Shown here one piece after another: positions 23,628-64,000 of a stretch of DNA of 64,000 bases; the stretch's first letter is position 1; each line of letters begins with the position of its first letter. The position numbers were made by a program, and so were the translations under genes. The DNA lies in contig NC_091936.1 in the NCBI RefSeq assembly GCF_041260155.1, positions 40,327,963 through 40,391,962 of the forward strand, in the 5' to 3' direction. The notes under the pieces were generated by a model. That model did no database searches. It was not told where the DNA came from and was given only the letters and a program-made list of their open reading frames with translations. This DNA comes from Ptychodera flava. Taxonomy: Eukaryota; Hemichordata; Enteropneusta; Ptychoderidae.

Positions 23628-23812
23628 AGGTATACAGTCACCTGTAATCTAAATATACCCATATATGTTCAAAGGGGCGTTCCTTCGTATTCGAAATGCC
23701 CATGTGATGGCGCTGTTTTTTAAAAGCGGCCACCCGCTTAAAATCTGTGATTAGTTAGATTTTCTCTTTCCATGGTAACTGTGGCAAAATTGGAACAGGT
23801 GACAGTATACCT
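23628..23812. mobile_element. TTAA-type MITE family B with paralogous empty site
   Basis: 185 bp, terminal inverted repeats AGGTATACAGTCACCTGT / AGGTATACTGTCACCTGT (one mismatch), flanked by TTAA at 23624-23627 and 23813-23816. The homologous place by copy D (30751-30754) has a single TTAA and no insert. Non-coding. TTAA duplication suggests a piggyBac-like transposase, though the ends do not begin CCC. Confidence 0.82.
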
Positions 23813-23816
23813 TTAA

Positions 23817-24116: not shown

Positions 24117-25084
24117 GAAACCAAACATCATTTACGATCCCCTTGATACAATCCGTTTTAATATGTTCAAAATGTCATTAGAATACGGTTTGCAACAAAA
24201 CCGACTAATACTACCACTTCTATATTTTGGCACCAGCCATGGATATAGAGTAATATTGATTTATTGCACCTACATATTGATTTTTAAAGCGTCCTAGATA
24301 CGCGTCTTGTGAAAAAAGGTCAAGAATAAATATTTACTATTTCCTTTTTTCAGTGCTTTGCGCGTTTCTAGTCAATATATGGACTTCAACGTTCAGTCAC
24401 CTAGGAATGACTTGCTTGCACTGGCAACCACTGATTCACCGGTTAGGTCTTTCAGTTTCGTTGCCATAATGCTAGAAACAAAATCAGATGAAGGGTAGAT
24501 CAGTTTGGGATCGTTATCTTCAACCACCCAAACAAGAAATTTGGCAGCCTCTTCAGCTGTATGGACATCACTCTTAGTAGGGTCAACAAAGTCGTCCCTA
24601 GCTGCGCGGAAGTCCCTCATCAGCTGACCGGTCTTGTCATCAACTCTATCGTACTTGACTCTCGCAAACATCTCGTCTTCTCTTTCTACGATAGGTGTCT
24701 CAACAGGGCCGAATGGGATGGTGCTCAAACTGCAGAATACAAGAGAACAGGCTTTTTAGTATTAGTGGTTTTACTGAATAAATTAACCATTATTGGAAGC
24801 GCCATTTCTCGCGTAGGGATTTCAAATGATAGCATTAATTTACAATAATATCATCCTTCGCTAACATGAATGCCACATCTTTTATATCGATCAACAAATA
24901 AACAAATGACTTGTCATTAAAATGTATTGTTAAGAGGTTTTCAAGGAACTGAAAATTCTGTATTTCTAATAGTCTAACGTACTGAATTTAGAATTAAAAA
25001 GGCCATTGACGATTAATTTTCTGTATTTCAGAAAATCTCTTTCTGATGTAGAAATTGTTAAAATTTACTTTGTGGCGTTGGTTA

Positions 25085-25145
25085 TAAACTTAGGAAGAGT
25101 CAGTAGGATGGAATGATGGATGGATAGATGGATGGTTTAATATAT
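25085..25145. repeat. Short GGAT/GATA microsatellite remnant in copy C
   Basis: A few GGAT and GATA units about 190 bp from exon 2, at the position where copies A, B and D have long tetranucleotide arrays. Confidence 0.6.
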
Positions 25146-25503
25146 AAGGAATGACGAAGGAGAGCATCTAAATAGGCAAACATGTACAAAACAGGTACAA
25201 TGGATGTATGGTGTGAAGGAAAGAAGTTTTACAAGATCTCAGTGACTTGGCTTCCGGTAGAAATTTAGATAGATACAGGAGGAACCATGGAAACTATTTT
25301 TGATTTTTCTTGAAATGACTTACCACAAATTCCAACAATACTGCTGACGTTGATTATTCTTCCCGAGCCCTGGCGTTTCATCACTGACAGGATAGCATGG
25401 ATTGTCCTTACTGCTCCAAAGTCATTGGTCTCCATGACACCACGGATGTCGTTCAATGAGAAAGTTTCCAATATCCCCACCAGTGTCACTCCTGCATTGT
25501 TAG

Positions 25504-26756
25504 CTACAGAAATTTACACAGGCCAATTATGGTCATTTGTTTCGCTCTTGTATCAGTATATGTAAGTAATTGCATCATTGTTTTTACATGAGAGTAATAT
25601 ATTATATACAAATTGCAATTTTAAGAAAACCATCATCAGCCTATGTGTTCACTTACTTAGCAATTTCCAACTCTTTGCAAAGCCCACTCCAACTCCCCTT
25701 CTTTTAAGTAGCTCATTAAGTAAAAGATGGACAGCTTTCACCTTTAAACAACTGGATTAGATTTTAAGTTTGTAGAACAATTCTCCACGTTGGTGATTCT
25801 TAGCACCAAGTTATCGCATGCGCAAGGAGTAGGCATGGAATAATTTCTGCCAAGTACATCGAGAATAGTGAAATGGTTTGAGGAACAGTGGTCATGTCTG
25901 AAGTTCAGGCATGTGTATAACAACTGATGATATTTAACTTCATTTGAACTAATGAATATAATATTAATTAAAGCTGCAAGCAGCTTCACGGGGCCCAAGC
26001 ACTTGCAAATACTGGCAAAAGGTGCCACAATGATAATCAATAACCCTCTAATGTCATAAGGTGCTTCATTCGGTCAAATTTAGAGCCTGTGGCACTTATT
26101 TATAGGCATTTACAGGCACATTTGTTAAATCGAGATAAAAGGTAGTGTGGGCCTGTTTGATATTGTGGCAAAAAGATTTTTTTCCCAAATTTATTCCTGT
26201 GTACGAAAAATCAGACATCTGGCATATTGGCTTGCCCAGAATTAGATATGCACATAATTGATGGATCCAATTATGATGATGAATGTATCGATGATTGCAT
26301 TGATAACAAACATTGACATGCACGAGCGACGTCGTAGGCATGCAGGCTTTTCATGAAGAGCTGGCAAGACAAGTTTGCCTCCCTATTCTACCAATATATG
26401 GGACTTCAGTGAAAGAGCTGCAAGCTAGAGCCTCGAAAATACCCTCCGTGGAGATTTTGACCATTCCCGTATTGTCAAATAACAACAATAACCATTGCTT
26501 TCTCATTTTTCACATACATATCACATTGGCAATCTATTGGTGGGCAAGCTTACAGTAGTTTGTTATAAAATCGCTTTGGACAGGAATGGTACAGAGCAAA
26601 GGGCATGTCAATAAACAGTAGCCATTAAATAATTCTGTCGTTACGATAACGTCGGCCACATAATCTATAAATAATTAACTGTGTACAACATACAAAAGTA
26701 TGTGAAAAAGGAGAACTTAAACTTTAGACAAATCACCAATAATGTCTTCAACTTAC
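25504..26756. other. Intron 1 of SDR pseudogene C
   Basis: Alignable in parts to intron 1 of B and D. The phrase AAAGCTGCAAGCAGC at about 25974 looks like the start of a dispersed repeat whose ~145-bp units are better seen at 28700-29760. No exon seen. Confidence 0.5.
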
Positions 26757-27019
26757 TCAGGATATCGATCCTCCCTTCGTCCCTGATCAGTGTTGTAAAA
26801 ATTGTCGACGGACTCGTCCTTTGTGACGTCCAGGTCACGAACAAACAGTGTCTTGTTCAGCATGTCTTTTCCACGCTTTTCAATTTCGCCTCTCTTTCCA
26901 AGGTTTCTCATGGTTGCATAGACTTTGTAAGGCTTGTCCCTGGCCTTTGCCATCTGCAGGGCCGTTTCCAGGCCGATTCCCGAGGAGCAATCCGTGATTA
27001 CGACAATTTTCCTCGACAT

Positions 27020-30754: not shown

Positions 30755-31102
30755 CATAGAATGCACCTCGAGCCAGATATTCAGAATCTCAGTCTTACAA
30801 TACCTTTTTGGACTATCACTTGTGGGGGCTCATTTTAAAGGTCTTTTGGTAAAAAGCCTTTACCTACTTATTTATTGTGAAAAATCGAAAATATGATATT
30901 CACCATACACTCAGCACAGGCACGGTGGCCATTTTGAATTTCAAGGGTCAGGAAATATTGCGGGTAAATTATGTCTCTAGTACCAAATTTTGCAATGTAA
31001 CCCCTGATTTTTATTCTTTATTTCAAAAGAGAAAGATTCAAAATTTCCTTTCGGAAGGTTTGGGCAAAGTTGATGTCTTTCAATATCGAGGCGAGTACTA
31101 CC
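30755..31102 (+). mobile_element. TTAA-type MITE family A, copy A5
   Basis: Preceded by TTAA (30751-30754), starts CATAGAATGCACCTCG, ends GAGGCGAGTACTACC. Orthologous by duplication to copy A4. Confidence 0.78.
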
Positions 31103-31377: not shown

Positions 31378-34300
31378 TCAGTCGCCAAGGAATGACTTGC
31401 TCGCACTGGCAACCACTGATTCACCGGTTAGGTCTTTCAGTTTCGTTGCCAGCATGCTAGAAACGAAATCGGATGATGGGTAGGTCAGTTTAGGATTGTT
31501 ATCTTCCACCACCTCAACAAGAAACTTAGCAGCCTCTTCAACTGTTTGGACATCACTCTTCGCAGGGTCAACAATGTCGTCCCTAGCTAAGCGAAAATTT
31601 CTCATCAGCTGACCGGTCTTGTCGTCAACTCTATCGTATTTGACTCTCGCAAACATTTCTTCTTCTCTGTCTCTGATAGGTGTCTCAACAGGGCCGTATT
31701 GGATGGTGCTCAAACTGCAGAATACAAGAGAATGCATGGGCTTTTTAGTTTTCGCGTCGTGATTTGACTAAAATATCCTAAATAGGAAGCGTCATTTTCA
31801 CTACGGATTCCGTTAATTTAGTTTGAATCGGAAAGTAATCACAAGCACGGGGTTTGGGAGTCAGTGTTCAATGTAAGGTTTTGCACACCATATTCTGCCT
31901 TTAAAGCCCCAATAGCTGCGAATGTGTAATAAACCGATCTCAAAATATCCTCAGTTTTCAAAGAGTTTTCTTGGAATAAGACCAATTAAAGACTGAGCAG
32001 GTGTATAACACTGTATTAATTTTAGCTTTCCCGCCGTGACAGAAAAAATAAAGATTGCGACAACATACATGCACATCGTGTGGGTGCATTCAAGTAAATG
32101 GCATCATGCTTGTTTCTTGGATGATTACAATGTGTATTTGCACGAAATACTGCATTTTTGGTACTTTTCTTTGAGGTGCCATTTTACGGGTGCAGCACCC
32201 GTTCATCATTTAACTTGTTAAAATATGTCGTCGTTGTGGTCCAAATCAGGCAGTAGTGATACGTCTATACATGTCCTTCAGTCAGCACATTTACATGAAC
32301 CAACGTTGGTTTGAAAATAAAACTATGAAAATAATTCATATGATTCGCAGCTATTAGGGCTTTAATAAAACTCTTAAACTTTACTCAGTAGTCATTCAGC
32401 AAATTTAGAAAATTCAACATGACAGTGACACTGACACAAATCAACAACTTTTCTCTGTCAGCGTTGGCCATGACATTCCCATCAATTATGAGTCATGTAT
32501 TTCGGTGTGGGCCCTTGTAAGCGTCGAATGAGTAGAATCTGACACATGAGACAATTTTTTGAAATTTATTGATGCAAGAAAAGGAGATAACGATGAAGCA
32601 ATTTTCTTTTGAGACCGACATGTGATCACACATGGATATCTGCGTACCGGCAATAACTATAAACGTGAATACTTGTACTATCTGAAAAACGTTGTCAGTA
32701 ATGACGTGTAAATGTGCATTTACTGGCTGTATGTCTTTACTATTGAATAGATGAATTAAAAAAAATATTGTTTGAAAAAAGAAGCTATTCTGAATGGCAC
32801 TATAAGCGAATCCTACCACCACCAGTAAACGTAATGCACTCTTTGCCAACACTTTGAAATTTAATCACGTATTTATAAACCACTCTTGTTGTTTACAACG
32901 CCACAGTCCCTCCACAAACGCCTATTTCGAAAATGTGTGTCATTCACCAGCTTTAGTGATAAATGTTATCAGTTGCACTGGCATTTTAAACTAAAGAAAT
33001 AACTCGTAATATTCTTGTTATTTGATAACAGTTTTATGCATATTCATGTTAGCGCGTCCGCAACGTTGCACATATTTCAAAATATCTTAGAAAATTCTCT
33101 AGGTCCCTTCGTTGATATTAATGTAACTTTCTCATAATCCTAGCAAAAGTCACGGACTGTGCCTATACGAAGCTGCGAACCAATGTTGTGCGATGTGTGA
33201 TAGTGAGCGTGCGTGCGTGCGTGCTTCACGAACTCTACAACGTGTGGAGCGGTCTCAGTCAGAAAAATAACAACTTAGCCGGCTATTGAACCACTCTTTC
33301 TTGGGAGTGGAGATTTAGCCGAGCGGTTCTCTCTGTTGCCTCTCCGCTAGGCGACTGATGCCGTATGTTGTGGGTTCGAACCCGATTGAAAACTAGCCGT
33401 ATTTTTACGTTAGAACGCCTATCTAAACCAATTTTGCATAAAATTTTACAAATCAAATATACTCGATATTTACGACTGCTATCGCAGAGTGCCAGATTGT
33501 GCGTCGGCGTGGATTACACCACTCTGCGGCTCAGCTGCCAAGCGTCTAAATTTCGTAGTATCATATTTTGCTACCATATGATGTGACGGTCTAGAATGTG
33601 TAATTCCCATCTTTTTTCTCGAACAATAAACAAATAAAGAGTGTCATAAAGAGTCACTTAAGAGTATTTTGAACGGTTTGAGAAGATGCTGAAAACCATG
33701 TCAGGAGATTTGTCTTGGTTTCTATCTACCCTGTGTGACTATAGTCTCCCTATCTCCCTGTAGTATTTTCTATCCCAATGTCGACCCCAATTATTTATTA
33801 CTATACCAATCACCAACGGGGAGATTATCGCCCCGACTAAACAACATCTTAACACCTGCACGAGCGAGGAAAAATATTACCATTGTATTACAGTGCCAGC
33901 TGTGTAGTGGTTTTATGGATAATATATAATATTTAAGGTAAAAACTAGAGACCTTGAAGTTGTGCATATACTTACTAGACGTTGAATTTTCTCAGAGTTG
34001 GTGCAAGGGCCTCTGAGAACCCTTCAAGAGCGAACTTGGATGACGAATAACCTTCCGCAAAAGGGGCAGCTGTGTGGAAAGATGTTCGAGATAATGAGTC
34101 ATGATCAATTTAATGGATACTTTATCTGAAACGTTGTAACTTGAGAGACGAGAAGGCGATGTACGCAATGTCTGAAGATCTAAGGTGATGAAACGTTGAT
34201 GGCGTGAACAGGTAAAGACTTTAAGATTTCGACATATAGAGAGAAAAAATGTTGTCTTTCCAGTATAAGCCGAATTTGATATGTACCTTTCCTTGGCACT

Positions 34301-37300
34301 TTTATCTATTTCAGCAAACCCCTGTAGGATGTATAGATTTGTCAAATCATTTTCATTTTCGTTGCTTTCGTTAGTCTAAAGTCTAAAACTTACAAACATA
34401 CACCTTTTTACTTATATACCATATTTTCTCTAGCAATATTATCGGAACACATACATTGTGACAGAGGATGACATACATATAAAATGATGTATGTATGTAT
34501 GTATGTATGTATGTATGTATGTATGTATGTATGTATGTATGTATGTATGTATGTATGTATGTATGTATGTATGTATGTATGTATGTATGTATGTATGTAT
34601 GTATGTATGTATGTATGTATGTATGTATGTATGCGTTTGTGTGTGTTTGTTTGTCTGACATTGTCTGTCTGTACAGACAGACAGACTTAAAGATGTGGAG
34701 TGCGATGGACGGACTGACTGAATAATGGATGGATGGATTGGTGGATAGGGAAGGACAAAGGAGAGAGCAGTTGTATGTGTAGACGTACAAAAAAACCAGT
34801 AAAATGGATGGATGGATGGACGGTATGAAGGAAAGCGTTTTACAAATTCTTGGCGACTAACTTCCCGTAGAAATATATATAAACATGGCAATGTGAAAAT
34901 TATCTTTGATTGTTTTTTCTGCAATGACTTACCACAAATTCCAAGCATACTGCTGATGTTGATTATTCTACCTGAACCCTGACGTTTCATCACTGACAGG
35001 ATAGCATGAATTGTCCTTACTGCGCCAAAATAATTGGTCTCCATGACACCACGGATGTCGTTAAGTGAGAAAGTTTCCAATATTCCCATTTGTGTCACAC
35101 CAGCGTTGTTAACTACAGAAATTGGAAGAGGCCAATCAGAATCATTAGCGTCGCTCGTGTAACAGTATATGTCTAAGATTGGTTCACTTATTACACAAAA
35201 GAGTATTTAATAAGGTAGAACGCGCCTCGGGGACAGATATTAGGACTCTCAAACTTTTACAGTTCTTTTCTGGTCTAACATTTGTGGGGTTCATTTTAAA
35301 GCTCTTGGTGTAAGAAAACTTTTAAAGTCTTAGTTTTTCGAAAATCGAAAGTTTATTTTTCTCCGTAGAGTTAACACAGACTTTGCGGCCATCTATTGGT
35401 AAATCTGGGGTAATTTGTTTCTCTAATACCAAAATTTGCGCGGTGACCCAAAATTTTTATTCTTGATTTTGAAGGGTAATGGTTAAAATATTCCAGAGGA
35501 AAGTTTGTGCAAAAGTTTAGGTCTTTCACTTTCGAGGCGCATACAACCTTAAAGGTAATACGTATTGGAATTTTAAGAAAATCATCGTCGACCTATACAT
35601 TCACTGATGATGATGATGGAAAAGAGTCAATATCTGTCTAGAGCCAATCCTAAATCCCCTTCCTTCGGCAGTTCACAAGGTAAGAACTGGTCATCTTTAC
35701 CTGTGGAGCTACTGGAAGGGATATTTAATCGGTGTAACAATCCTTTACGTTGGTGATTGTTAGCAACGAGTTGTAAGGTGCGAAATGAGCGGGTGTGGAA
35801 TACTTTCTGTCGAAAAGCGCATCGAGATGGAGAGGTTGTTGAGGTACTTCGGGGTTCAATGTCTTTAAATATTCAATAATATCTAACCCGCGTTTTAGAT
35901 ATCCTTGATATTGTTCCATAGTGTTAAGCGTTCTGCTGTTGTATCTGCCAGCTGCCAACGTTGATATTTCAACCGTAAATGTTGTGTACAAGATACTGGC
36001 GTATCACAAAAAACTGCGTTCGACACTGTGGTCGAGCTGATTAGCTGAACATCAGTCTTTTTTATCAGGATGAAAAAAAATGACGGCAACGTGACTCCAA
36101 ATATGTTGCTTCTTATCGATTGACTAATTACGCAAACAGTAAATAAGTATGACAGCCCCTCGCATCGAAGCATGTTTTTCAGGTCACAATGTTATTCACA
36201 TGAATCTTTATAATCAAATCCGGCGTTTATTTTTCCGCTGCCTTCAAGCCATACAAAACTTTAAAGGGACATGTTCCCGATGACGTTGAACAGAAAGCAA
36301 ATTATTGAATATCTCAGAAATTCAAAGGAAACGGAGATTAGCAAAGTGTTGATTTGATAAATGGACACGTTGGTAATAAAACCGGTGTGACATGTCAAAA
36401 CATGCTCTTTTGAGTACACATGTCAGCTCATCCCATTATAATTCGATAAAGTGCTATTGCTGAAAAGATTACTATCGTCTACGTTTACCTGATATAGGCC
36501 CCTATATTAAAACAGATTTGTCAAATTGGTGAGAAGCGTAAACAATCAACTTCCACGCGATAAGTGGAGATCTCGTGTGATTCGCGAATTAACAAATGCA
36601 ACACTCCTCTCCCCCCCCCCCCCCTCATTCAGTGTTTAAAGAAATTACCTCTGTGGTCCCATTTTTCGAAAAACAAACCTTTCAAAATCGCCATGATTTT
36701 TAAGGCTTAGGACCTTGCAATCTGGGTCAAAGGTGTATGACACGTGATGCAGGTGCGACAGGGTCAAAGAGGAAGCCCATGCAAATCAAACAGATTAAGA
36801 CAATTAAATTAAGAGAAATTAATTAAAAGGTTTTATATATCTTTAATTTCAGTGCAAAGTGAGTGGGCAGAGGTGTCAAGCAGCGGGCGGAGTAGGAAAA
36901 TGATACAGTATTTATGAAATATGAAAAATAAACAAAACAGTTGTTTGTTATCATTTGACAAATCTACAATCTAGCTCGAGGCACCTGCTTGGTACGCCTG
37001 TAATGCTGTGAGGTTAAATGGTGCATTTATGGTTGTTGCTGTACAGATGATTACTTGGTTTGGAAATATTGAAATGCAAGAGCGCCGTCGTATGTGTAGA
37101 TGAGAAATGAAAACAAATTCGATGGCCTGCAGGCGTTTTGTGTGGATCTGGCCAAGGGATCGGAATTGGTCACCTTCACTTTTAATACTGGGATTGCTTT
37201 CAAGGCGTACTGAGTAGAAGCTTCGAGCACAATCGCCATGGCGATTTCGGGCATTCTATGTTTATCAAATTATAAATTAACTGTTAATATTGCTTTTATA

Positions 37301-37843
37301 TTTGTCATATTCCATAAAGAAATTATCACACTGTCGATCCCGCCTTCGGTAGACCGGCATACAAGTTGTTTGTGAGAAAATCACTTTAATGAAAAATGTT
37401 ACGGTGCAAATAAAGGGCATATGTCAATAAACAGTAGCAAATAACTATTTCTGTTACCAAGTTAATATTGAACACAAATCTATAAATAATTAACTGCATG
37501 CCACATACAACATTATGTCGGAGAAGGGAATGGTCATAACTAAAATTTAGCAAAACACCAGAAATGTCTGCAACTTACTTAGGATATCGATCCTCCCTTC
37601 GTCTCTGATCAGTGTTGTGAAAAATTTGTCGACGGACTCATCCTTTGTGACGTCCAGGTCACGTACAAACAGTGTCTTGTTCAGCATGTCTTTTCCACGC
37701 TTTTCAATTTGGCCTCTCTTTCCAAGGTTTCTCATGGTTGCATAGACTTTGTAAGGCTTGTCCCTGGCCTTTGCCATCTGCAGGGCCGTTTCCAGGCCGA
37801 TTCCCGAGGAGCAACCCGTGATTACGACAATTTTCTTCGACAT
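31378..37843 (-). CDS. RDH8-like: SDR copy D: RDH8/17-beta-HSD1-like dehydrogenase, complete
   Basis: Four minus-strand exons: 37579-37843, 34933-35112, 33976-34069 and 31378-31714; 876 bp, 291 residues. Exon 1: TGCSSGIG cofactor motif and YATMRNLGK. Exon 2: NNAG, ETNYFGAVR (catalytic Asn) and INISS (catalytic Ser). Exon 3: YSSSK (catalytic Tyr and Lys) and FALEGF. Exon 4: GPVET and the C-terminal region. At the exon 3 donor the genomic sequence reads GTC TAG, but splicing at TA|GTAAGT joins TA to T of exon 4 and gives Tyr, so this is not a stop. Same phases (1, 1, 2) as copies A and B. The tandem arrangement with B and C, all on one strand, plus shared promoter motifs, points to recent expansion and possibly shared expression. 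Likely substrate is a retinoid or steroid, by family only. Confidence 0.88.
31715..33300. other. Intron 3 of SDR copy D
   Basis: Non-coding; 32450-32650 aligns with copy B intron 3 (14690-14890). No exon seen. Confidence 0.55.
33305..33400 (+). ncRNA. tRNA-derived SINE-like unit (Pol III A and B boxes)
   Basis: A-box-like TTAGCCGAGCGG (33315-33326) and a perfect B box GGGTTCGAACCC (33372-33383), about 45 bp apart as in tRNA-Ser/Leu-type heads. The T arm pairs poorly and no full cloverleaf forms, so it is more likely a SINE head or tRNA relic than a working tRNA. Lies in intron 3 of copy D. Confidence 0.45.
34484..34635. repeat. (GTAT)n microsatellite in intron 2 of copy D
   Basis: About 38 nearly perfect GTAT units, about 300 bp from exon 2. 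GGAT units follow at 34723-34735 and 34806-34820. Confidence 0.97.
35214..35548 (+). mobile_element. TTAA-type MITE family A, copy A6
   Basis: Starts GGTAGAACGCGCCTCGGGGA, ends GAGGCGCATACAACC followed by TTAA. Left flank is ATAA, one change from TTAA. Located in intron 1 of SDR copy D. Confidence 0.85.
35640..37450. other. Intron 1 of SDR copy D
   Basis: Two blocks, about 35640-36200 and 36950-37450, align with copy B intron 1. No exon or RNA gene was seen. Confidence 0.55.
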
Positions 37844-42491: not shown

Positions 42492-44759
42492 ATGGCATCA
42501 AAACCAGACAAAGTTGTAAAGAAAGCATCTATGTCATCAGTATCTGTTACTGGTAATAGCAACTTTGTAATTGCAACAGGAAAAAACTGCCAAGTTAACT
42601 TTGGTAGAGGATCTCCTTCGCGACAAGACTCTTCAGCAAGCTCTGACAGTGATGATAAGAAAAGTGAGTAGTTCATTTCAAAGAATAAGTTTCATCTTTA
42701 GGCATGGTCACAAGTATGGCCCAGTATTTACAGGTTATAAACAGTAAGCGAGGGTATTTGGTTGCGGATATAGGACCTCTGGGGTGAAAATTAGCATATT
42801 TCGCTCTGTGATTATTTCCTGCCAAATATGCTAATTTCCACACCAGAGGTCTTATATCCACAACCAAATTGCCAAGCGCGCTGTTTATAACCTCAATGTA
42901 ATATGATAATGTTAAATAAAAAAGGACAATGTCGTTATTTAGGATGCAAAGTTGGGACTAGGGTTCAGGACCCTAGTCTCAATACAAACTCTAAAGGGAA
43001 TGTATCAGAAAGCACACCCATGCACATACAGTTGATTGCACTCAATACGGTAACGCAATGCATCGATATTGCAATTACACATTGAACTTGAAGAATTTTA
43101 CTTGAAAAAATGCTCAAAAAGAAACAAATTAAATATTGTTAAAAAATGTACCTGCACCACACTAAAATTTATCAATCAGATTAACCTCAAGCCGAAGACC
43201 TGTCGGACATAATGGCGCATTGAGCTGTCAAGCTGGAGTTCGAAATATGCGTAAGCTTCCAACTGTTACGCAGCATGCTAGTCTTCTTGTTGAGAATAAT
43301 TATCTTGGCACCAGCCAATCAGATGGCCAGATTAAAACTGAGTATAATATAATACACTTGTGCATATTTACTGCCATAGACTGATAGTGTAAGTGTCAAG
43401 AGTCTAGACCCTGTATTTTTCACTAGAAAGTTGAGGGGGGGGGTCACCCGGACGAAACCTGGCCATGTTCAAAAGTGATCACAAGTGGCTATTTTTATAC
43501 TAATGACCAGTGATCTTGACCTATTGACACTGATCAGATGTCTAGTTCCTTTTCTCAACTTTAATTTCTTTGTATTTCCCATGGTAAAACTTTGGAAAAT
43601 ATATTAAGATGAACAATGTTTAGACATAAATATGACATACTTTTATTAGAAAACAAGAATACAATCATAGAGCCATATGCGGTATGAGCCAAGCACCTTT
43701 GTAGGCACACTGGACAAAATAGTAGAAAGCTATTGATCAGTAGAAATCTCCCAATCAGCAGACTAATTACAGACATGTAATTAGATACAATTTTCTTTTT
43801 TCTGAAGAAACCTGATGATCAGGAGACTTTGTCTTGTCCTAGAATTGTACCACTAACAGTTTGAAACTGGTAATGTTTGAATTCCTGGATATGATTTTGA
43901 TGTGAAATTGTAACAAATGAAGTCTAGCAATGAAATACACACTTCAATTTCAGTTTTCCATGGAAGTTATCATTTTGAAACATGCAAAGAAAGCAATAGT
44001 GAAAATTTTCAGGACAATGCTATGCCTACCCTTAAACTTGATAATTTATACTTCTCTTGGCCAAGTGACCTATAGTTCTTGATGTGCATTTAATTTAATC
44101 CCGCAAACCCACCACTAATATATTTTTCTCATGCAAACTAGTAAACCACCATACTGTAATTCAAATGTAAAATAGTAAACCTAACACTTTTATGATATAA
44201 TTCATTAGTGTATGAAAAAATGTTCTGTTAATTTGTTATTATGTTTTGAAACTCGAGCTTCTCTGGGACAAAAACAGCACAACCAAACACATCACTTGCT
44301 TCAACATCTGCAGTAGAAGCAATCACGAGTGACATTTCACTACCTGATTTGGAACTTTCATCCAAATTTTAGGGGTGGGACGTGCACAAACATAGGGGCA
44401 CTAGTGCAGAGAAATGGCCCCATAGCCGGTTACCTTGCCTGATACTCTACTACTGTTTATGCATTTTGGTTTCAGGTTTCAGAAAGATTTTTTCACTGAT
44501 CTCAAAGAGATGCGCTGGCAGCTGGAAGACCTTGGTGCGTGAGTTGCCATGGCCGGATGGAATGCCTGATGATGAACTGGAAAATGAGATTCAAAGTATT
44601 TCAAGCAATAACCAGAATAACATACAAGAGCAATGTTACCAGGGGCTGTTCATGTGGACGCAGAGATACCGCAATCGATGCAAGGATGATGTCGTCTTTG
44701 CTTTGGAGCAGTGTGATTTGAAAAGTGTTGCTGAAGAAGTTGAAAAAATTGAACTGTAG
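42492..44759 (+). CDS. Death-domain protein with RHIM-like segment, about 151 residues
   Basis: Two exons are supported: 42492-42663 and 44476-44759, both phase 1 at the junction (donor AAAA|GTGAGT, acceptor TTGGTTTCAG). Exon 1 encodes a Lys/Ser-rich start, then VTGNSNFVIATGKNCQVNFG (residues 19-38), then a Ser/Asp-rich linker. Exon 2 is a death domain: helix 2 with W-KTLVREL, the ELENEI and NNIQEQCYQ helices, a conserved Trp, and C-terminal ALEQCDLKSVAEEVEK. Death domains oligomerise in apoptosis and innate immune signalling. The Gly/Asn-rich segment resembles RHIM-type amyloid motifs found ahead of death domains in RIPK1 and insect IMD, but the match is loose and is inference. The ATG at 42492 follows an in-frame stop at 42474. 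A good acceptor at 42426 would make this a 5'UTR exon; a weaker one at 42485 could join an upstream coding exon. Confidence 0.65.
42732..42893. mobile_element. Foldback MITE with AGGTTATAAACAG ends
   Basis: Nearly the whole 162 bp is an inverted repeat with arms of about 70 bp (AGGTTATAAACAG to a centre near 42810) and scattered mismatches. Non-coding; in the intron of the death-domain gene. Confidence 0.75.
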
Positions 44760-48121: not shown

Positions 48122-48280
48122 TTAATATAAATATTTATAAACAAGAAATGTATTTTTTAAGTGTGCCCGTCTATCTGATGTTGCACACAGGAAATCCTGA
48201 ATAAGCATTGATCCTTTGAGAAAAGTGGCCTGATACGTCATCACTCACCAAAATGCCAAAGAATCTTTGATCTTGAGGTA

Positions 48281-48850
48281 TGTTATGTAGGTCATTTCCC
48301 CCACACTCATCATGACCTGAGTTCAATCAGTCTAGAACATTCCCAAGGTCACTGCCCTTGATGACCTCACAACCTTGAATTCAATTAGTCATGTTTGGAA
48401 TGTTCTGGAAAGTTGATTAGTTGTGTAAGGGAGATAATTTTAGAACAGTAATTAGCATGTCAATAAAAGTTCTAGATTGTTCTTACATGCCTTTATAAAG
48501 GGACGTGCACAGCTTCCAGTCAGACTTTTGGGATCGTGTCTCTTGTGTGTTACTAAACTCCAGCAGTAGTCATTCTCAAGACTTTTCAAGACCTTCACTG
48601 TCAACGCTGGATTTATACTGTGGTCTTTGTGCAGCTTCAAGCCTGCAAGCCAAAGGACTGTTCATTCATCCAACTGACTGTTACAACTCTGAGACTGGAG
48701 CTTTGCCGTCCCAGCTGAGATAAGTAGTCTGTACACTTTTAAAGCTTGTACTCTGTCCCTAACTTAGCAATTAGTTTTTTTTCGTAATAAATTTTGTTTA
48801 AACGTTAACTGCTGAGTTCACCCTTTTGTTCGTTTTCTCTGCACGTAACA
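48281..48850 (+). repeat. 5' LTR of the Gmr1-like element
   Basis: 570 bp, starts TGTTATGTAGG and ends CACGTAACA (TG...CA). Contains TATAAA-like and AATAAA sequences as expected for promoter and poly(A) signals. Short open frames inside it are not genes. Confidence 0.93.
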
Positions 48851-51800
48851 AAATTGGGGGCTCGTCCGGGAGACGAATATTTTGAGCCGTTTGACAACAT
48901 TTTGCCTGCCTTTTTTAAAAACTACAGTATTCTGTGAACTCAGCGAAATTTAATCATGGCGGAATTTAAACCAGAGGAAATGGATGACCTTGATCAGGAC
49001 ACATTTGATTCCCTCAGAAAAGACGACCTCATGCACTGGCCAATTTCCTTAAAGTAGAAGTCAAAAGATCTATGCGCAAGAGGGAAATACAGTACCGTAT
49101 TGCCAAACATCTAGTTGATTTAGGCCAATTTGAGGAATCCACCCTGAAAGATTATGAGCCCGAGTCTACCTCTGAACTCAGAAAATTAGAATTAGAAATG
49201 CAGACAAATTTGGAGATCAAGAAACTAGAATTACAAATGGAAAAAGAGAGACAGGCATTAGAAAAAGAAAAAATACAAATGCAATTAGAAATGGAAGAAA
49301 GACAGAGAGAGAAAGATAGGCAGGAAAGATTAGAAATGAAACGTTTGGAGCTTGGACAGTCAGGAAAATTCTTCCCTTCAGACAAGTTTGACATCACTAA
49401 GCATTTCAGGTTAGTTCCCCTTTCCAAGAAAAGGATGTTGATAAATATTTCCTTCATTTTGAGAAAATTGCTCAGAGTCTGAGTTGGCCTAAGGAGTCCT
49501 GGTCTATGCTTTTGCAGAGTGCTTTGGTGGGTAAAGCCAGAGAAATTTACATTCAGTTGTCAGTAGAGCAGGCTTCAGATTATGATTCTGTAAAGGAATT
49601 AATTCTCAAGGGCTATGAATTGGTGCCTGAAGCTTACCGTCAGAAATTTAGGGATTGTGAGAAGGCGAAAGACCAAACTTATGTTGAATTTGCTCGAACA
49701 AAAGAACAACTGTTTGATCGTTGGTGTTCTTCGGAAAAGGTCAGTCAGAATTATGACAAATTACGACAACTTGTTTTGATTGAGGAATTTAAAAGGTGCA
49801 TTCGGAGTGACATCAAGACATTTATCAATGAACAAAAGGCAGATACATTAGAGGTTGCTGCACGTTTGGCCGATGATTATTCATTGACCCACAAATCTTC
49901 ATTTCTCAGCAAACCATCCCAGTCCTTTTCATACAGAAACAATGCAGGTAAATTTAACTCGTCCTTTTCATCCAAGAATTTTTCAAAGGACAGTAGGAAA
50001 TCAAATGACAACAGTTCACAGAGTTCAAGTAACACTTCCACATCATCAAATCCCAAGTCTCAATCTCCTTCTGACAAACAGTTCGGTACACTTTCTTGTA
50101 ATTATTGTAAGAAAGACGGCCATTTAATGTCAGAGTGTTTCAAATTGAAAAGAAAACGTGAAGGTCAAAGTGGTCAAAGTGGATCTAACCAACCGGCTTT
50201 ATTTCTTCATCAACTCAATTAGAGTCTAATAATGTGTGCAACACATTTTCTGAGGTTAAACCCCTCTTATCCCCAATTAATGAGGTCAAGGTCAATTCTT
50301 CTCAAGATAGCATTATGGGTATTTTCGAGCCATTTATTCATAATGGTTTTATATCACTTTCTAGTGATTTTTCTTCCGCTACCCCTGTCAAAATTTTAAG
50401 AGATACCGGGGCTTCCCAGTCTCTTTTGTTGGCAGATACCCTGCCGTTTTCTGAAAAGTCATTTTCAGGTTCTAAAGTTCTTATTAAGGGGGTAGATTGC
50501 AATGACTCATTCCTGTTCCTCTCCATAATGTCTATTTGTCTTCGGACTTTGTTTCTGGACCTGTGACTTTAGGTATTAGGCCTTTTTTGCCTTTTGAAGG
50601 GATTCACCTTCTTCTTGGAAACGACCTTGCTGGGGACAAGGTCATTACTAATCCACTTGTGACTGATAATCCTAGTTTAGATCAGGATCCAGAGCCAATT
50701 GAACAAGAGATACCCGATTTATTTCCTTCATGTGCCATTACTCGAGCCATGTCAAAGAAAACTTCCGAGAATCAAAATACTCTCAAAATAATGTCACAGA
50801 TGTTGACTTAAATGACACCTTTCTCAGTCAGGTGTTTGACACGGATCATTCCGTTATCCCTCGTGGATTTGAAACTTCCAGTAAACTTCTGCTGACCAAA
50901 GTCCGACATTTTCTAGATCAAATCTCATTGCAGAACAACACAAAGACCAGATATTTTGTCTTTGTTTGACAGGGTAGATGATGAAGGTAAAACTTCAGAT
51001 AGCTCTGTTTCCTATTATACAAAATCTGGTATTCTCATGCGTAAATGGAGACCTCCAGATGTTTTGGTTGATGACGATTGGGCTATAAAACATCAAATTG
51101 TGGTTCCAAAGCCCTACCGTGTTGAAATATTGCGCCTGGCCCATGAAACGCCCTGGGCTGGTCACTTAGGAGTCAGGAAAACTTATCATAAAATTCTCAG
51201 TCACTTTTATTGGCCTAATCTCAGGCAGGATGTAGCACATTTCTGTAAAACTTGTCACACATGTCAAATGGTAGGAAAGCCAAATCAGACCATTCCAAAG
51301 GCCCCTTTACAACCAATTCCTGCATTTCAAGAACCATTTAGTAGGATACTAATAGACTGTGTTGGGCCCCTACCAAAAACAAGATCAGGAAATGAGTACA
51401 TGCTGACAATAATGTGTACATCAACCCGGTTCCCAGAAGCCATACCACTGAGAAACATAAAGACAAAGACTATAGTGAGAGCTTTAGTCAAATTTTTCAC
51501 TTTATTTGGCCTCCCTAAATGTGTCCAGTCCGATCAAGGCTCCAACTTTATGTCTGGAATTTTTCAACAAGTAATGGATCAGCTAGGCATTAAACAGTAC
51601 AGGTCATCCGCCTATCATCCAGAAAGTCAGGGTGCTCTTGAGCGATTTCATCAAACTTTGAAAAACATGATTAGGACCTACTGTTTTGACACAGAGAAGC
51701 AGTGGGATGAAGGAATTCATTTTCTGCTCTTTGCTGTTAGAGAGTCAATTCAAGAGTCTCTTGGTTTTAGCCCATTTGAGCTTGTATTTGGACATACAGT

Positions 51801-53108
51801 CCGTGGCCCACTTAGCTCGTTAAAGAGAAATTCCTGTCTGACGACGATGATTGTCTGATATTTTGCAATATGTGTCAGATTTTCGTACAAAACTCTCTAA
51901 AGCATGTGAATTAGCCAGAGAAAATCTTGAGTCATCTCAGCAGTCAATGAAAACCAAATATGATAAAAGCACCTCAAAACGGAAGTTTGAACCAGGTCAA
52001 AAAGTTCTTGTTCTACTTCCAATTCCTGGCAAACCACTCCATGCTCGTTACTTTGGGCCATATCTAATCGATAAGAAATTGAGTGATTTAATTACATCAT
52101 AATAACACCTGACAGGCGAAAACAAAAACAGCTATGTCACATAAATATGCTTAAGCCATATTTGGATAGGGATAATCCTACTATAACTCAGCCTGTCAGT
52201 GCAGTCAGTTCAAACCATTATGAAGATAGTGATACTGAAACTGACTTAAGTGAAAATACTCTAAACTCAAAGCTGGGCTCGGTCAAGCTTCAGAACTCAG
52301 AAATCCTGGAGAAGCTGGAGTCTACAAAGTTGGCACACCTCCAGCCAGAACAACAACAACAGGTAAAAGAACTGCTCCACGAATATAAACACCTGTTTCA
52401 AGATGTTCCAACGAGGACAAACATCATCTACCACAACGAAGATGTCTGCGACAGTAATCCAGTGGAACAACATCCAGACGGACTGAATCCTGCGAAAGCG
52501 GAATATCTCCAGGAGGAAGCCAAGTATTTGCCGAACAATGACTTTATCGAACTCAGTAAAAATAACCGGACTTTGCCGTGCATACTTTATGCCAAATTCA
52601 GTGCCATTTCAAGTTTTCCAACAACAAATTGCAAGAAGATAGTCATGGGACATCCTGTTTGCTACTTTTCACGCAAATTTAACAAATCTCAGAGAAACTA
52701 CTCTACAATTGAAAAAGAGTGTTTATCTTTGATATTAGCTTTACAGCATTTTGAAGTTTATGTTACTTCTTCAAATCAGCCAATAGTGGTTTATATTGAT
52801 CACAACCCTCTTGTTTTTCTGCAGAAATTTAAAGGCAAAAATCAGAGATTGCTAAGATGGAGTTTAATGTTACAGGAGTTTAATCTTGACATTAGACATA
52901 TCAAAGGCAGAGACAATTTAATTGCAGACTGTCTCTCTCGTATTTAGAAATTATTGTTGTTCACTTTCAAGAAATTTTATTGTTGTTCACTTTCAAGAAA
53001 CTTTACTTTAGAGTAAAACAAAATTTGAGTACTTAAATCCTTTTCAAGATTACATTTGTAAAAGAAAGATTTTTCTTTGAAAATTTTCTTTTTTTTGAAG
53101 AGGGGGTG

Positions 53109-53680
53109 TGTTATGTAGGTCATTTCCCCCACACTCATCATGACCTGAGTTCAATCAGTCTAGAACATTCCCAAGGTCACTGCCCTTGATGACCTCACAA
53201 CCTTGAATTCAATTAGTCATGTTTGGAATGTTCTGGAAAGTTGATTAGTTGTGTAAGGGAGATAATTTTAGAACAGTAATTAGCATGTCAATAAAAGGTT
53301 CTAGATTGTTCTTACATGCCTTTATAAAAGGGACGTGCACAGCTTCCAGTCAGACTTTTGGGATCGTGTCTCTTGTGTGTTACTAAACTCCAGCAGTAGT
53401 CATTCTCAAGACTTTTCAAGACCTTCACTGTCAACGCTGGATTTATACTGTGGTCTTTGTGCAGCTTCAAGCCTGCAAGCCAAAGGACTGTTCATTCATC
53501 CAACTGACTGTTACAACTCTGAGACTGGAGCTTTGCCGTCCCAGCTGAGATAAGTAGTCTGTACACTTTAAAGCTTGTACTCTGTCCCTAACTTAGCAAT
53601 TAGTTTTGTTTTCGTAATAAATTTTGTTTAAACGTTAACTGCTGAGTTCACCCTTTTGTTCGTTTTCTCTGCACGTAACA
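53109..53680 (+). repeat. 3' LTR of the Gmr1-like element
   Basis: 572 bp, nearly identical to the 5' LTR. A direct repeat of GTA flanks the two LTRs, consistent with insertion into the left end of MITE copy A7. Confidence 0.93.
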
Positions 53681-54028
53681 GTAGAATGTGCCCATGTTGT
53701 AGATATTTGGACTCTTGTCACAACACTTTTTCGGCCTACTTCTTGAAGGGGCTCATTTTGAAGCTTATTATTATATAATAGAAAATTTTTCACAGACTTA
53801 TCTTTTTGAAACTCGATAATTCAAGAATTGCCCTTAGAGATAATGCCGCGATGGCGGCCATTTTGAATTTCAAGTATCTGTAAATATTGGGTAGTTTTTT
53901 CTGCAGGCACCAGATTTTGTATGGTGACCCCTGATTTTTATTTTCTACTTCAAAAAGGAACATTTAAGTTTCCTTGCGGAAATTGTTAGCAAAATTCAAA
54001 GTATTTTATTTTTGAGGCACGAGCTACC
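53681..54028 (+). mobile_element. TTAA-type MITE family A, copy A7 (split by the LTR element)
   Basis: Main part of the MITE lies right of the 3' LTR (GTAGAATGTGCCC... to GCACGAGCTACC, then TTAA at 54029-54032). Its first bases GGTA remain left of the 5' LTR at 48277-48280, preceded by TTGA. Clear nested insertion. Confidence 0.8.
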
Positions 54029-55120: not shown

Positions 55121-57960
55121 TTTAGCTCACATTTTGTTTTATGTATATGATATACCAAAGAGAGCTTATATAAGTCGGTGGCATCTGTATGTATATGTAT
55201 GTATGTGCAGATGCGTGTCCGTCCACATCAAAAACTCCAAACTGCAGTACCTTCCATCATAGTATTTGTTGTACAGATGCATCCAGGGGTGGAGATGTTA
55301 ATTTGTTCAAATGAACATACCAGAGTCAAATATATGCAAATGAGGTAAAAAAAGGTAAATTCAGCAAATTGGTAAAACTCTGTAACCACTGGCCAGATTT
55401 GGGTGAACCTTGGTATACAGGTTCTTTATGTAGACGTTACTTAGACGTTAGTTTTGTCCAAATTATGTGAAATTTTTATAGTTGTGTTTTGGGGGCAATT
55501 TTTCCCATTTTTGGTAAAAAATCATCTTCTCCGATATCACTTGTCCCATTGCTTTGGCACTTGGTATGCATGATCCTAGGGTTGACCTCTGTTAGCTTTG
55601 TCAAATTGTTGTGAAGTTTCCATATTTGTATTTTTGAGGCAATTTTTCCCATTTTTTGGTCAAAAAATCATTTTCTCTGAAAGTTCTTGTTAAAAACTTT
55701 ATATACTTGATCCTAGGATTGACCTCTCTCTGATGTGTGGTAGTTGTGGTGAAACTTTCATATTTGTAGTTTTGGGGCAATTTTTCGCATTTTTGGTAAA
55801 AATATCATTTTCTCTGAATTACCTATTCTGATTGCTTTGAAACTCGGTACGCATGTACCTAGAGGCAACCTTTTTGATTGTCTTCAAATTGTGGTGAAAT
55901 TTTCATATTTGTATTTTAGGGGCAATTTTTCCCATTTTTTAGCTCGCATTTGGTATATGTATATATACCAAAGAGAGGTTATCTTATAAAGTGAATCAGC
56001 TCATTTGCATGCCATTTGCATGTCTGTGTGTATGTGTGTATGTCTGTTAGTCCGTCCAGATCAAAAACTCCTAAACCGAAATGCCTGCCATCTTAGTATT
56101 TGGTGTACAGGTGCACCTAGCGGTGGAGATGTGAATTTGTTCAAATAAACATGTCAGTGCCAAAAATATGCAAATGAGGGGAAAACAGGAAAAATCCTGC
56201 AAATGGCTAAAACTCTGTGAGCACTGGTCAGATTTGGTTGAAACTTAATTTTGAGGTGTAATTTTGGAGCAATTTTCCCGATTTTTGGTCAAAAATTTAT
56301 TTATCCAAAACCTACTGATCTGATAGCTTTGATATTTGGTATACAGGTATGTAAGGTTTATCTCAATATAATATAATATATTAAAATTAGGTTGAAATCA
56401 GCAATTTTGTATTTTTGGGGCAATTTTTGCCTATTTGTGTCAAAATTTTTTTCTGCTAAAACTACTGATCTGGTAGCTTTCATATTTGGTCTACATGTTC
56501 CTTCTGTTTATGTTAATATGATATATTGAAATTAGGATGAAATCTGCAATGTTGTATTTTTGGGGCAATTTTTCTCATTTTGGTAAAATAATTTGTTTCT
56601 AAACTGAAATTTATCAGTCTGATTGCTTTGATATTTAGAAAACAGGTTCCTAGGGTTTATGTTAATATGATATATTGAAATTAGGTCGAAATCTGCAATA
56701 TTGAATTTTGGGAGCAATTTTTGCCATTTTTGGTCAAAAAAATTGTTTCTCAAAAACTACTTGTCTGATAGCTTTGATGTTTAGTAGGCATGTTCTTACA
56801 GATGATTTTAATTAAATATGTTCAAATTATGATAAATCTGTAATTACCGTAGGTATTTTTTCAGCTATTTCTGCCATTTTGGTCAGGCCGACCTTAAGTG
56901 GTCTTGCAAAGATTCCTCCTTCATCAACACATACATCACAAAAAGTTATTCTCTACATAACATAGCCAAGCTCTATCAGCTGCTAGGTCGCTTATTTTAA
57001 ATTTTCAGAGAAAAATCTAAAGTTTTGTTTTTTAGCTCATATTTGGTATACCAATGTGAGGTTATCTTATAAGCTGAAGTCTGTGACGTCTATATGTATG
57101 TGTATCTGTATGTGTGTATGCATGTATGTATGTATGTATGTCCGTATGTATGTATGTATGTATGTCTGTGACGTCTATATGTATGTGTATCTGTATGTGT
57201 GTATGCATGTATGTATGTATGTATGTCCGTCAACATGAAAAACTCACGAACCTCTGCACGTGTCAGCTTGGATGTATCCTTGGCTATAGATGGGATTTTG
57301 TTCAAATGAAGTTTGCATTGCCAAAATTATGCAAATGAGCTTTAAAAATATGAAAATGGTTGAGAATTAATAACTCAAGAACCGCTGTTTTGATTGCTTT
57401 GAAAATTTGTGTGCAAGTACCTTAGGTGAAGCTTATACACTTCTATGAATATCGTGATGACATCTTATATTTCATATTTTTGCTGAATTTTTGGTTATTT
57501 TTCTCAATTTAAATAAAAATTCTTCTCTTCTCAAACTGCTTGCCCAATTGCTCTTAAATTTAGGTTAGATGTTTGCAAGGGTGTTACCCTTCTAATTTGT
57601 TGAAATTACAACAAAATTGGAAAAATTACTTTTGGGGGGCATTTTTGTCATTTTTGGTCATAAAATCTTAAAAAAATTTTATTTTTAAAACCATTGGACA
57701 GACTGCTTTTATATTTGGTATGCAGGTGTCCAGGGATAACAGTAGTTAGATGTGTGTAAATTGTCCGGAAATATACAAATTTGTATTTTTAAGACAATTT
57801 TGTCATTTTTGGTCAAGAAAACTTGATCTGAAAATTACTTGTCTGATAGCTTTGTAAAATTACTTGTCTGATAGCTTTGTAATTTGGTATAAAAGTCCCA
57901 AGGGGTATTATTAGATAAATGTTCTGCTCAAAGTGTTGGGAAAGCCCCAAACTTGTATAT
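55121..57960. repeat. Hairpin-headed non-coding repeat cluster (three heads) with ~145-bp units
   Basis: Three heads beginning TTTTTAGCTC followed by ATTTGGTATA-type sequence lie at about 55123, 55940 and 57030. Each is followed by a TATG-rich tract and TCCGTC-CA-ATCAAAAACTC. Behind the heads run degenerate units marked by GGGGCAATTTTT, starting at 55492, 55636, 55774 and 55919, then 56266, 56417, 56562 and 56711 (spacings 138-151 bp). The unit also contains TTGCTTTGA-ATTTGGTATGCATGT-like sequence. No coding potential. Later heads seem inserted into, or tandemly joined to, earlier ones. Confidence 0.65.
57076..57232. repeat. (TATG)n tract with a duplicated ~84-bp block
   Basis: The block starting TCTGTGACGTCTATATG occurs twice, at about 57080 and 57164. 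It is part of the third hairpin-headed repeat. Confidence 0.8.
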
Positions 57961-58867
57961 TTTAGGTAATTTTCTCAGTTTTTGACCTTAAATGACCTAC
58001 ACCAACCCAGGGTATGTTGTGATACAGTTTCGAAGGCTGTGATCATAATTTTGTCATATTTGGTATCAATATGTTGTAAAATTTGATCCAGAAAACAAAA
58101 CTGTGGTTAATTTTTTCAGTGTGGACCAATTTTTGCAGCTTTTCCATGTAAGGCACACAAGAACTGATGAGAAATTTGGATCCAGGGTAATTACAGATGT
58201 CATAATTAACCCCCACAGTGGAAGGCATTTCACTTTCTGTAACTAACTTAAGTACTGTTTACATTCGAATGTTCGCACTCATAGCATTAATTAAAAAATC
58301 CCCAAGATTGTAAATACATTTCCTGCCTTATGTAAATATGGTCAACCAAGGGATGGAACATTTGATATTCAGGAGGGGTAGGGTCCAGAAGTTTGATTAG
58401 GTAGCATTACTTTTTTCCCAGATACTTTGTACACTTTTCCCCCACTCTTTATTTTTCCCACTCTCCCACCTTTTCTTTTTGTCAAGCCTTCTCTAGCTGA
58501 TTTTTTTCTTGACATTTGCTTACGTATTTAGGATCTGCTTGTCCTATTTCTATAGAAGTTGATATGCATTTTCCTAAAAATGACCCCAGTACCTAAGTTG
58601 GAGACCTTGTTTGCTTTTGTCATTCTTGTTTTTCTGGTTTGAATATTTCTTGAATGGACCAATTCAAACCGAATGTGAGCACATAGTGTCCTTGACGGTA
58701 TTTTTTTTAAATAATTGTCTCTGACATGGCTTGTCCGATTGCTTTTAAACTTGGTATGCATGTTTCCAGGGGTAAACTTAGATAAGTATACTTACTCTGA
58801 CCTGCGTATACTTACTCTGACCTGCCCCATCGAACCCAATGTGAGCCAGGTGTCATTGACACTATGT

Positions 58868-60152: not shown

Positions 60153-60400
60153 GGTAATACACCCCTCGAAATGGACAGTTTAAAATCTTTGCTCAAATAT
60201 TCCGTTCTTTCTCAAACTCAACAAAAATGAACTAGGAGTCATGATGTAAAGTTTTGAGTTAGAGAAACACACTACCAATTAACAACTTTGATCGATATTT
60301 GATATTCAAAATAGCTGCTATACTTAAAAAGGCTGCTATGTTAATCTCTGGAGAGCACAGGATTTTCGATTTCACTAAAAAGAAAATTGGGAAAATTCCG
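60153..60400 (-). mobile_element. TTAA-type MITE family A, copy A8, degenerate
   Basis: TTAA (60149-60152) followed by GGTAATACACCCCTCGAA and a diverged family core in reverse orientation. The far end is not recognisable. Confidence 0.6.
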
Positions 60401-62816: not shown

Positions 62817-64000
62817 ATGCCAATTATGGAGTACAACTACACAAATACAAGTTTATCGACAGAGTATGGTTTATCACAGAACGACACATTGTTGTATGGT
62901 AACGTCACACAAGATGGAGATGATGGGCTTGACATTCTGGACCATAAAAGACCCAGCGACTGGATGATTCCAAAGAATTGGTTCATCGGCATACTCTCCG
63001 TTGACAGTATTCTGATCATCGGCGGCAATTTGATGGTCATCCTTGCAGTCTTACTGCAGCCAAAGTTGCGGAAATCTGCCACAAATCACCTCATTATATC
63101 GCTCGCCTTTTCTGACTTAAGTGTCGGTCTTGTTTTCGGGCCCTCTCAAATAGTCTACACCATCATCAGGTATCTGGACCTGTCAAGCGACCTTGTCTGT
63201 GATATCGTCATCATGCTGATGTACACCGGCCAGAACACGACCATCCTGACTCTTATGGCAATAGCGGGAGACCGCTATCGCGCCATCGTGCAGCCCTTCA
63301 AGCCGAAGATGACGGTGAAACAGTCCCGCATAATCACGATACTGATGTGGCTGGCGGCTTTTGTCTACTCAGCGTATGAGATTAAGGTAATATGCACCTC
63401 GAAAGTGAAAGACTTAAACTTTTGCTCTAACTTTCCTCAAGGAATCTTTCAATCATTCTCTTTCAAAATCAAGAATAAAAATAGGGGGTCACCGTGCAAA
63501 TTTTGGTAGTAGAGAAACAAATAACCCAAGATTTACTGATATTAGAAATTCAAAATGGCCGCCATCCCTGTGTTAACTCTATGGCGAAATATAAAAAAAT
63601 TCGAATTTCAAAAAACTAAGCCGGTGAAAAGTTTTCTTTCACCAAGAGCTTTAAAATGAACCCCCACATGTGGTATATCAGAAGAGAACTGTAAAAGTTT
63701 GAGAGTCCGAATGTCTGTCCCCGAGGTGCGTTCTACCTTAAGCTTTTTGGAATTGTTCGCTACACCTTTAAGAACAACGCCACAATTTCAATGTGTACAT
63801 CCCTGCGTAAGTTCTCCTTGACCCTGGAGAAACCAATGACTTTGACTAACTTGGTGGTGGCGTACATCCTCCCGCTCCTAATCGTTGCTTACTTCTACCT
63901 CCGAATGATCGTTGCCCTGTACTTCACGAAATCACTGAATGACGAGTCGAAACGGCGGAAGCGCAAGGCCATCAAAATGCTACTCGTAGTGGTGATCCTG
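62817..64000 (+). CDS. Class A (rhodopsin-like) peptide-type GPCR, 3' end off window
   Basis: Exon 1 runs to 63386; exon 2 is 63743-64000 and continues beyond the edge. The N-terminus is rich in N-glycosylation sites (NYT, NTS, NDT, NVT). TM1 has GGNLMV, TM2 LAFSD, TM3 a Cys before it and GDRYRAIV after it, TM4 the conserved Trp (ILMWLAAF). Exon 2 gives extracellular loop 2 with its Cys, TM5 with ILPLLIVAY, a basic loop (KRRKRKAIKM) and the start of TM6. This suits receptors for short neuropeptides (orexin/QRFP/NPY-like), ligand unknown. Start: ATG at 62817 or 62826, just before the glycosylated stretch; an upstream in-frame ATG at 62664 would add an unlikely N-terminus. The intron between TM4 and loop 2 is a MITE. 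Without splicing the frame stops at 63509 and the receptor would end after TM4. Confidence 0.88.
63386..63737 (-). mobile_element. TTAA-type MITE family A, copy A9, forming the GPCR intron
   Basis: 352 bp from GGTAATATGCACCTCG to CGAGGTGCGTTCTACC, flanked by TTAA at 63382-63385 and 63738-63741. The intron runs 63387-63742: the donor is TTAAG|GTAATA (its last exonic G is the first base of the element) and the acceptor is TTAAG| (second TTAA plus a host G). Element ends and intron ends coincide to within a few bases. Compared by eye, this copy is among the best preserved of the family. Confidence 0.9.

Follow-up and report, generated by a model that had tools for sequence, protein, structure and literature searches.

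The right-hand end of the window, which is the whole 64,000-nucleotide stretch of DNA analysed here, carries a plus-strand gene for a rhodopsin-like GPCR that runs off the window end. Its reading frame extends from an ATG at 62817 over 570 nt up to 63386, is broken there, and resumes at 63743 to continue to the window end. When joined, the two exons (Table 1) encode 276 aa in a frame that stays open up to the window end. The joined translation (276 residues) matches Pfam 7tm_1 with 124.8 bits, the pieces from exon 1 and exon 2 matching successive stretches of the profile (1–119 and 125–210, respectively). Exon 1 has four N-glycosylation sequons and what we take to be the DRY motif of class A receptors. 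By sequence, the closest solved relatives among the best 60 of 551 matches are cholecystokinin receptor A (E 1e-15) and neuropeptide FF receptor 2 (E 7e-15). Counted on the alignments, the TM4 tryptophan, presumably W4.50, is separated from the ECL2 cysteine by 30 residues both in the GPCR and in cholecystokinin receptor A, and by 38 residues in neuropeptide FF receptor 2. The 30-residue spacing would fit the exon junction without proving it, and the support it lends is modest since the length of ECL2 differs among receptors.

The break in the frame coincides with a MITE of a family that we call family A. The last base of exon 1, at 63386, is at the same time the first G of the element. The coordinates of the MITE and the TTAA duplication on its sides hold as they were given in the first-pass annotation. 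The insertion site is GAGA-TTAA-G. It lies where TM4 ends, with the break in phase 0 between Lys and Leu. The 16-bp inverted ends of the element agree at 13 of 16 positions, and the ends of the family are of the GGTAGTATGCGCCTCG type. The window was scanned for TTAA followed by 16-bp inverted ends and a second TTAA, with at most three mismatches and 100–700 bp in length, and 30 first-order Markov random windows served as the control. Four such structures are found in the window, the GPCR element counted, while the random windows give a mean of 0.07 and a maximum of 1, which rules out a chance origin of TTAA with such ends.

Besides the GPCR element, three TTAA-flanked elements were noted. The one at 7788–8031, nested in a family-A copy, has 236 bp between the TTAAs and inverted ends that agree at 16 of 16 positions. 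Those at 23624–23816 and 31901–32365 have 185 and 457 bp between the TTAAs, respectively, with one mismatch each in the 16-bp inverted ends, and are unlike family A by eye. The element at 23624–23816 directly adjoins the 3′ end of the family-A copy at 23817–24115.

Table 1. Features of the receptor gene, the element inserted in it, its candidate splice sites and the further family-A copies of the window. A slash marks an exon–intron boundary.
Feature	Positions	Strand	Description
GPCR exon 1	62817–63386	+	Likely ATG, N-terminus, TM1–TM4; ends ATT AAG, phase 0; from translation and Pfam 7tm_1
Left TTAA	63382–63385	+	Target-site copy, remains exonic
MITE, family A	63386–63737	+	Kolobok-type, 352 bp; TTAA on both sides, RR..YY ends
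5′ terminal inverted repeat	63386–63401	+	GGTAATATGCACCTCG; bases 2–3 are the GT of the predicted intron
Predicted intron	63387–63742	+	356 nt, AAG/GTAATA ... CCTTAAG/C; best-scoring of 193 frame-open donor/acceptor pairs
Acceptor-like AG within element	63645–63646	+	TTTCTTTCACCAAG/A; top of 63387–64000, 7.1 vs 3.7 for 63743
3′ terminal inverted repeat	63722–63737	-	GGTAGAACGCACCTCG (minus-strand reading)
Rival acceptor AG	63724–63725	+	CGAG/G, exon start 63726; 17 nt upstream of the proposed acceptor, use shifts the frame
Right TTAA	63738–63741	+	Target-site copy; gives acceptor AAG with host G 63742
GPCR exon 2	63743–64000	+	ECL2 with cysteine, TM5, start of TM6; cut at window end; from translation and 7tm_1 125–210
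Family-A copy	7575–8186	-	Split by nested TTAA element 7788–8031
Family-A copy	9940–10299	+	5′ end TGCAG, not GGTAG
Family-A copy	15336–15665	-	Flanked by two exons of dehydrogenase gene 1; right end illegible
Family-A copy	23817–24115	-	Beyond last exon of dehydrogenase gene 2
Family-A copy	30755–31102	-	Beyond last exon of dehydrogenase gene 3; place matches 23817–24115
Family-A copy, nearest relative	35214–35548	-	82% identity; intron 1 of a tandem short-chain dehydrogenase gene, ~100 bp from exon
Family-A copy	53681–54028	-	3′ end adjoins right LTR of a retroelement
Family-A copy, weak	60153–60321	+	E 1e-4; TTAA before it; begins GGTAATAC

The TTAA target duplication is exact on both sides of the GPCR copy, and the ends of the element are of the 5′-RR ... 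YY-3′ form, GG...CC. TTAA together with purine-purine/pyrimidine-pyrimidine ends is given as the mark of Kolobok versus piggyBac (PMC9587614, PMC2872659). By its target site and ends, the MITE in the GPCR exon fits the Kolobok superfamily as a putative non-autonomous member; the first-pass annotation had named no superfamily. Kolobok elements including the Xenopus T2-MITEs are described as sharing with it the TTAA duplication, RR/YY ends, inverted repeats and the existence of non-autonomous members, and differ in that the T2-MITE ends carry AGGRR where the GPCR MITE has GGTAG (PMC6004289, PMC9587614). The piggyBac-type CMITEs of corals also have the TTAA duplication and short inverted repeats, and one coral copy is reported from a presumed intron; the ends of piggyBac are CC[C/T]T (PMC2872659). 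A piggyBac origin was rejected, as the GPCR MITE has the ends GGTA...TACC.

Between the two exons we predict an intron that consists of the 352-bp element plus one TTAA and of no other sequence, as the first-pass annotation had stated in describing the intron as one family-A MITE alone. Joining of 63386 to 63743 yields the empty-site sequence base for base with the reading frame restored, which bears out the scar-free restoration proposed there. When the element is kept in the message, stop codons appear, and the retained 356 nt are not divisible by 3. The boundaries are GT-AG with the flanking exon consensus (AAG/GTAATA and TTAAG/C), donor positions +5, with no G, and +6 being off consensus. 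Of the earlier description as a visible, "complete spliceosomal intron", the GT-AG boundaries and the restored frame stand as predicted, and the intron itself stands as a prediction rather than as something visible.

Splice sites were scored with scoring matrices for donors and acceptors. The proposed donor ranks second among the 50 GTs in 62817–63742, in which the GT at 63726 scores highest, and its score of 6.8 lies between those of two donors of the neighbouring dehydrogenase genes (5.3 and 7.7). The proposed acceptor at 63743 is weaker placed: it ranks fourth among the 29 AGs in 63387–64000, with the frame disregarded, and its score of 3.7 is near the low end of six neighbouring dehydrogenase acceptors (3.4–8.3). 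The three AGs that outscore it, at 63647, 63442 and 63546, are all within the element. No branch-point motif of the forms YTNAY, CTRAY or YNYTRAY is present in the last 80 nt of the predicted intron, and the acceptor is 204 and 313 nt away from the two CTNAY matches in the intron. Near the 3′ end there is a single pyrimidine stretch, TGTCTGTCCCC, which stands before the GAG acceptor at 63726 and not before the AAG. The message might be spliced mainly to another acceptor, such as the in-element AG at 63647, the GAG at 63726 or the in-frame site at 63773, mostly with a truncated or altered product and a partial loss of function. The higher scores of the in-element AGs speak for this, as does the position of 63726, which lies behind the pyrimidine stretch and is met first in scanning from upstream. 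However, GAG is the least favoured acceptor triplet, and splicing to 63726 shifts the frame. Splicing to 63647 would leave element sequence with an in-frame stop in the message, and 63773 would drop 10 residues that can be aligned to known receptors. We consider the use of mainly another acceptor quite unlikely. A weakly spliced, partly leaky intron is, judging from these sites, a real possibility.

Among 100 shuffles of the predicted intron RNA, 99 fold less well than the real sequence (z -2.98), and in the predicted fold the inverted ends are paired, the donor GUA with the UAC near the acceptor. Such a fold is expected of any MITE and is no evidence of splicing. It could aid splicing by joining the ends or hinder U1.

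The seamless geometry was taken in the first-pass annotation as a sign of splicing, and it carries much less weight than it was given there. An insertion of a family-A element with an intact end at any TTAA produces AAG/GT, and an acceptor AG arises whenever a G follows. A G follows TTAA at 134 of 846 sites, both strands of the window taken together. Any insertion at an exonic TTAAG produces the same look. A purely disruptive insertion would show it in about 1 of 6 cases, given these 134 sites, and by this estimate the geometry would favour a spliced over a merely inserted element only about sixfold. Further support for splicing comes from the pair 63387/63743, which ranks first among the 193 frame-open pairs, and from its donor and acceptor scores, both of which fall inside the small range of the neighbouring dehydrogenase introns (2 donors, 6 acceptors).

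The element might therefore be an unspliced insertion that merely disrupts the gene, as a null or segregating allele or in a young pseudogene, with the geometry built in at TTAAG. Large outbred populations commonly carry null alleles, and the weak branch-point and acceptor context agrees with this reading. What stands against it is the state of the exons: on either side of the element the reading frame stays open, and the class A motifs that were checked are retained. The frame is unbroken across 828 coding nt. In comparison with its nearest relative, the GPCR copy has 19 private changes and the relative 25, with 5 ambiguous; these were polarised by the other copies over 335 positions after exclusion of 17 gap columns. 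The 19 private substitutions in 335 positions suggest that the element may be of some age, but the exons are undecayed. In a tree of eight copies, from which the weak copy at 60153 was excluded, the terminal branch of the GPCR copy is 0.073 substitutions per site, which sets a maximum for the time elapsed since insertion, as the tree does not sample closer copies from the rest of the genome. Some copies in the alignment overrun their ends by up to about 20 bases into neighbouring sequence, which makes their branches slightly too long; the ends are exact for the GPCR copy and for its nearest relative. In neutral simulations of 828 coding nt, which assume 0.15 indels per substitution with 80% of them frameshifting, the frame was kept in 0 of 4000 runs at 0.073. 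It survived in 0.8% at 0.04, in 8% at 0.02 and in 28% at 0.01. The undecayed exons despite the 0.073 branch count in favour of splicing, and as evidence this is moderate, since the branch gives no more than a ceiling for the age of the insertion. We regard a purely disruptive insertion as unlikely, though worth keeping in mind.

The other members of the family show what the element does elsewhere in the window. A BLAST search returned the element itself and 9 further rows, which correspond to 8 further elements because a nested insertion divides one copy into two halves, each with a row of its own. The four near full-length matches have 74–82% identity. The 5′ end is GGT in 8 of the 9 copies. 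Six of the 9 copies have an intact left TTAA. A right end is legible in 6 copies, of which 3 have the right TTAA intact; in one case this TTAA also ends a neighbouring TTAA element. Exact TTAA on both sides is found in the GPCR copy only, among the 9 window copies. An exact-pattern scan found no family-A members in viral contigs (end motif 1 match, core motif 0) or in genome contigs (1 match); when these matches were compared with the element by BLAST, the viral one gave no match and the genome-contig one only 12–17 aligned bases.

Four tandem short-chain dehydrogenase genes are present in the window, at 1536–7328 (+), 14125–20549 (-), 24396–27019 (-) and 31381–37843 (-). No exon 1 of the plus-strand gene lies within the window. 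In the gene at 24396–27019 the exon 1 match changes frame near 26777–26826, and this copy may be broken.

Five of the other family-A copies can be placed relative to exons, all of them in the dehydrogenase array, two inside introns and three past last exons; for the remaining three (9940, 53681 and 60153) no exon is known. No whole-intron copy was found among the 8. The copies at 23817–24115 and 30755–31102 occupy matching places, and their insertion is therefore probably older than the gene duplication. At the place that matches the copy at 35214–35548, two aligned sister dehydrogenase genes carry an intron without the element. Judging from this alignment, the copy is a MITE inside an older intron, with about 100 bp of intron left before the exon, in contrast to the GPCR copy. 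This copy is also an example of the common insertion of transposable elements within introns, and the GPCR element might likewise have invaded an older intron at its site. However, no intron sequence flanks it: beyond the TTAA copies there is coding sequence on both sides, which joins up to an uninterrupted receptor, and both remnants of an old intron would have to have been deleted to the base. With no intron remnant between the element and the exons, a MITE inside an old intron appears nearly excluded, and we consider it very improbable.

Hence, we suggest that the MITE in the GPCR exon is most likely a transposon-made intron, a reading that we consider probable and that remains a prediction from the DNA. 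A non-autonomous Kolobok-type transposon was pasted into an exon of a peptide-receptor-like GPCR at GAGA-TTAA-G with duplication of the TTAA, as the anatomy of the site shows. In the sequence, the first three bases of the element, GGT, set the donor AAG/GTAATA at the left junction, and the right TTAA together with the host G provides the acceptor TTAAG. U2-type splicing would then remove 356 nt and rebuild the old series of codons, so that the gene presumably outlasted the insertion, with the element as its new intron. In the transcript, the inverted ends are predicted by folding to pair, which might draw the splice sites together. Insertion at an exonic TTAAG would work in either orientation, owing to the inverted repeats at the ends and the palindromic TTAA; the inverted ends would supply a donor both ways, in agreement with the first-pass annotation.

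The annotation also named the element an introner. According to Gozashti et al. 2022 (PMC9860276), introners occur across many lineages with varied recruitment of splice sites, and only families with four or more introns were retained in the survey. Its criterion is similarity that extends at both ends up to the boundary, within 5 exonic or 10 intronic bases. The GPCR element ends 1 nt from the donor and 5 nt from the acceptor, which is within these limits. As to similar whole introns in unrelated genes, there is 1 candidate among the 9 family-A copies of the window, where at least four are called for. The name is apt for the way in which the element would act and does not yet extend to the family: the GPCR MITE appears to work like an introner and is so far a single, opportunistic instance in a MITE family that is ordinary in other respects.

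A likeness is found in Chrysochromulina sp., a unicellular alga. Its introners, as described in the legend of Fig. 2C of the survey (PMC9860276), have a 4-bp duplication, a donor in the element and a co-opted acceptor, like the GPCR MITE, in which the G of the acceptor AG is host sequence. Unlike the GPCR MITE, which has inverted ends, an animal host and a single known case, the Chrysochromulina family is described with no inverted ends and with multi-copy introns. Most introner families in the survey leave the length of the mRNA unchanged, as is predicted for the GPCR MITE, and among animals and land plants introners are reported from only two groups, both animal, of the 3,325 eukaryotic genomes surveyed (PMC9860276). 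Table 1 of a 2012 review lists 35 transposon-insertion introns in Oryza, Drosophila, Oikopleura and Zea (PMC3443670). These share with the GPCR case an insertion into a gene followed by splicing, and the elements differ. The seamless model of the review is a duplicated AGGT target, whereas in the GPCR the AGGT spans the junction between TTAA and element and only the AG recurs at the right. Among the literature matches listed (titles, abstract openings and term counts, with subscription papers mostly outside), none describes a Kolobok or TTAA introner, and a fungal paper (PMC8476143) is the only one with both "Kolobok" (once) and "introner".

Transposon-made introns are already known and are rarely reported in animals; the superfamily and the host group of the GPCR case may be new. 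We tentatively raise a broader idea, which we regard as doubtful but not far-fetched: GGT-ended Kolobok MITEs would be splice-ready by construction, and Kolobok would be an unrecognised intron-making superfamily with many such introns in an animal lineage. If this is true, exonic TTAAG sites would be a steady supply of scar-free new introns in animals rich in GGT-ended Kolobok MITEs. The origin of new introns in animals is poorly documented. As the 2012 review puts it, why inserted transposons get spliced, or whether some are spliced preferentially, is not understood (PMC3443670). If confirmed, the GPCR case suggests an answer for one superfamily, in which the target site and the first three bases of the element spell an exon–intron boundary, and many such introns in the genome would let the Kolobok ends and target site explain why.

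Several further features were observed in the window. Rfam, at gathering thresholds, and a tRNA scan of the window gave 0 matches. An open frame at 44373–44759 encodes a Death domain (Pfam PF00531, 35.1 bits). Along with the rhodopsin-like GPCR and the overall style of the genes, this domain points to an animal host. Degenerate repeats of families D8, D9, D11 and D19 occupy 55447–58778, several of them at a spacing of about 140–155 bp. An LTR retroelement with an integrase (rve, Integrase_H2C2) lies at about 48266–53680 and is presumably young, because stretches of its two long terminal repeats are 97–100% alike.
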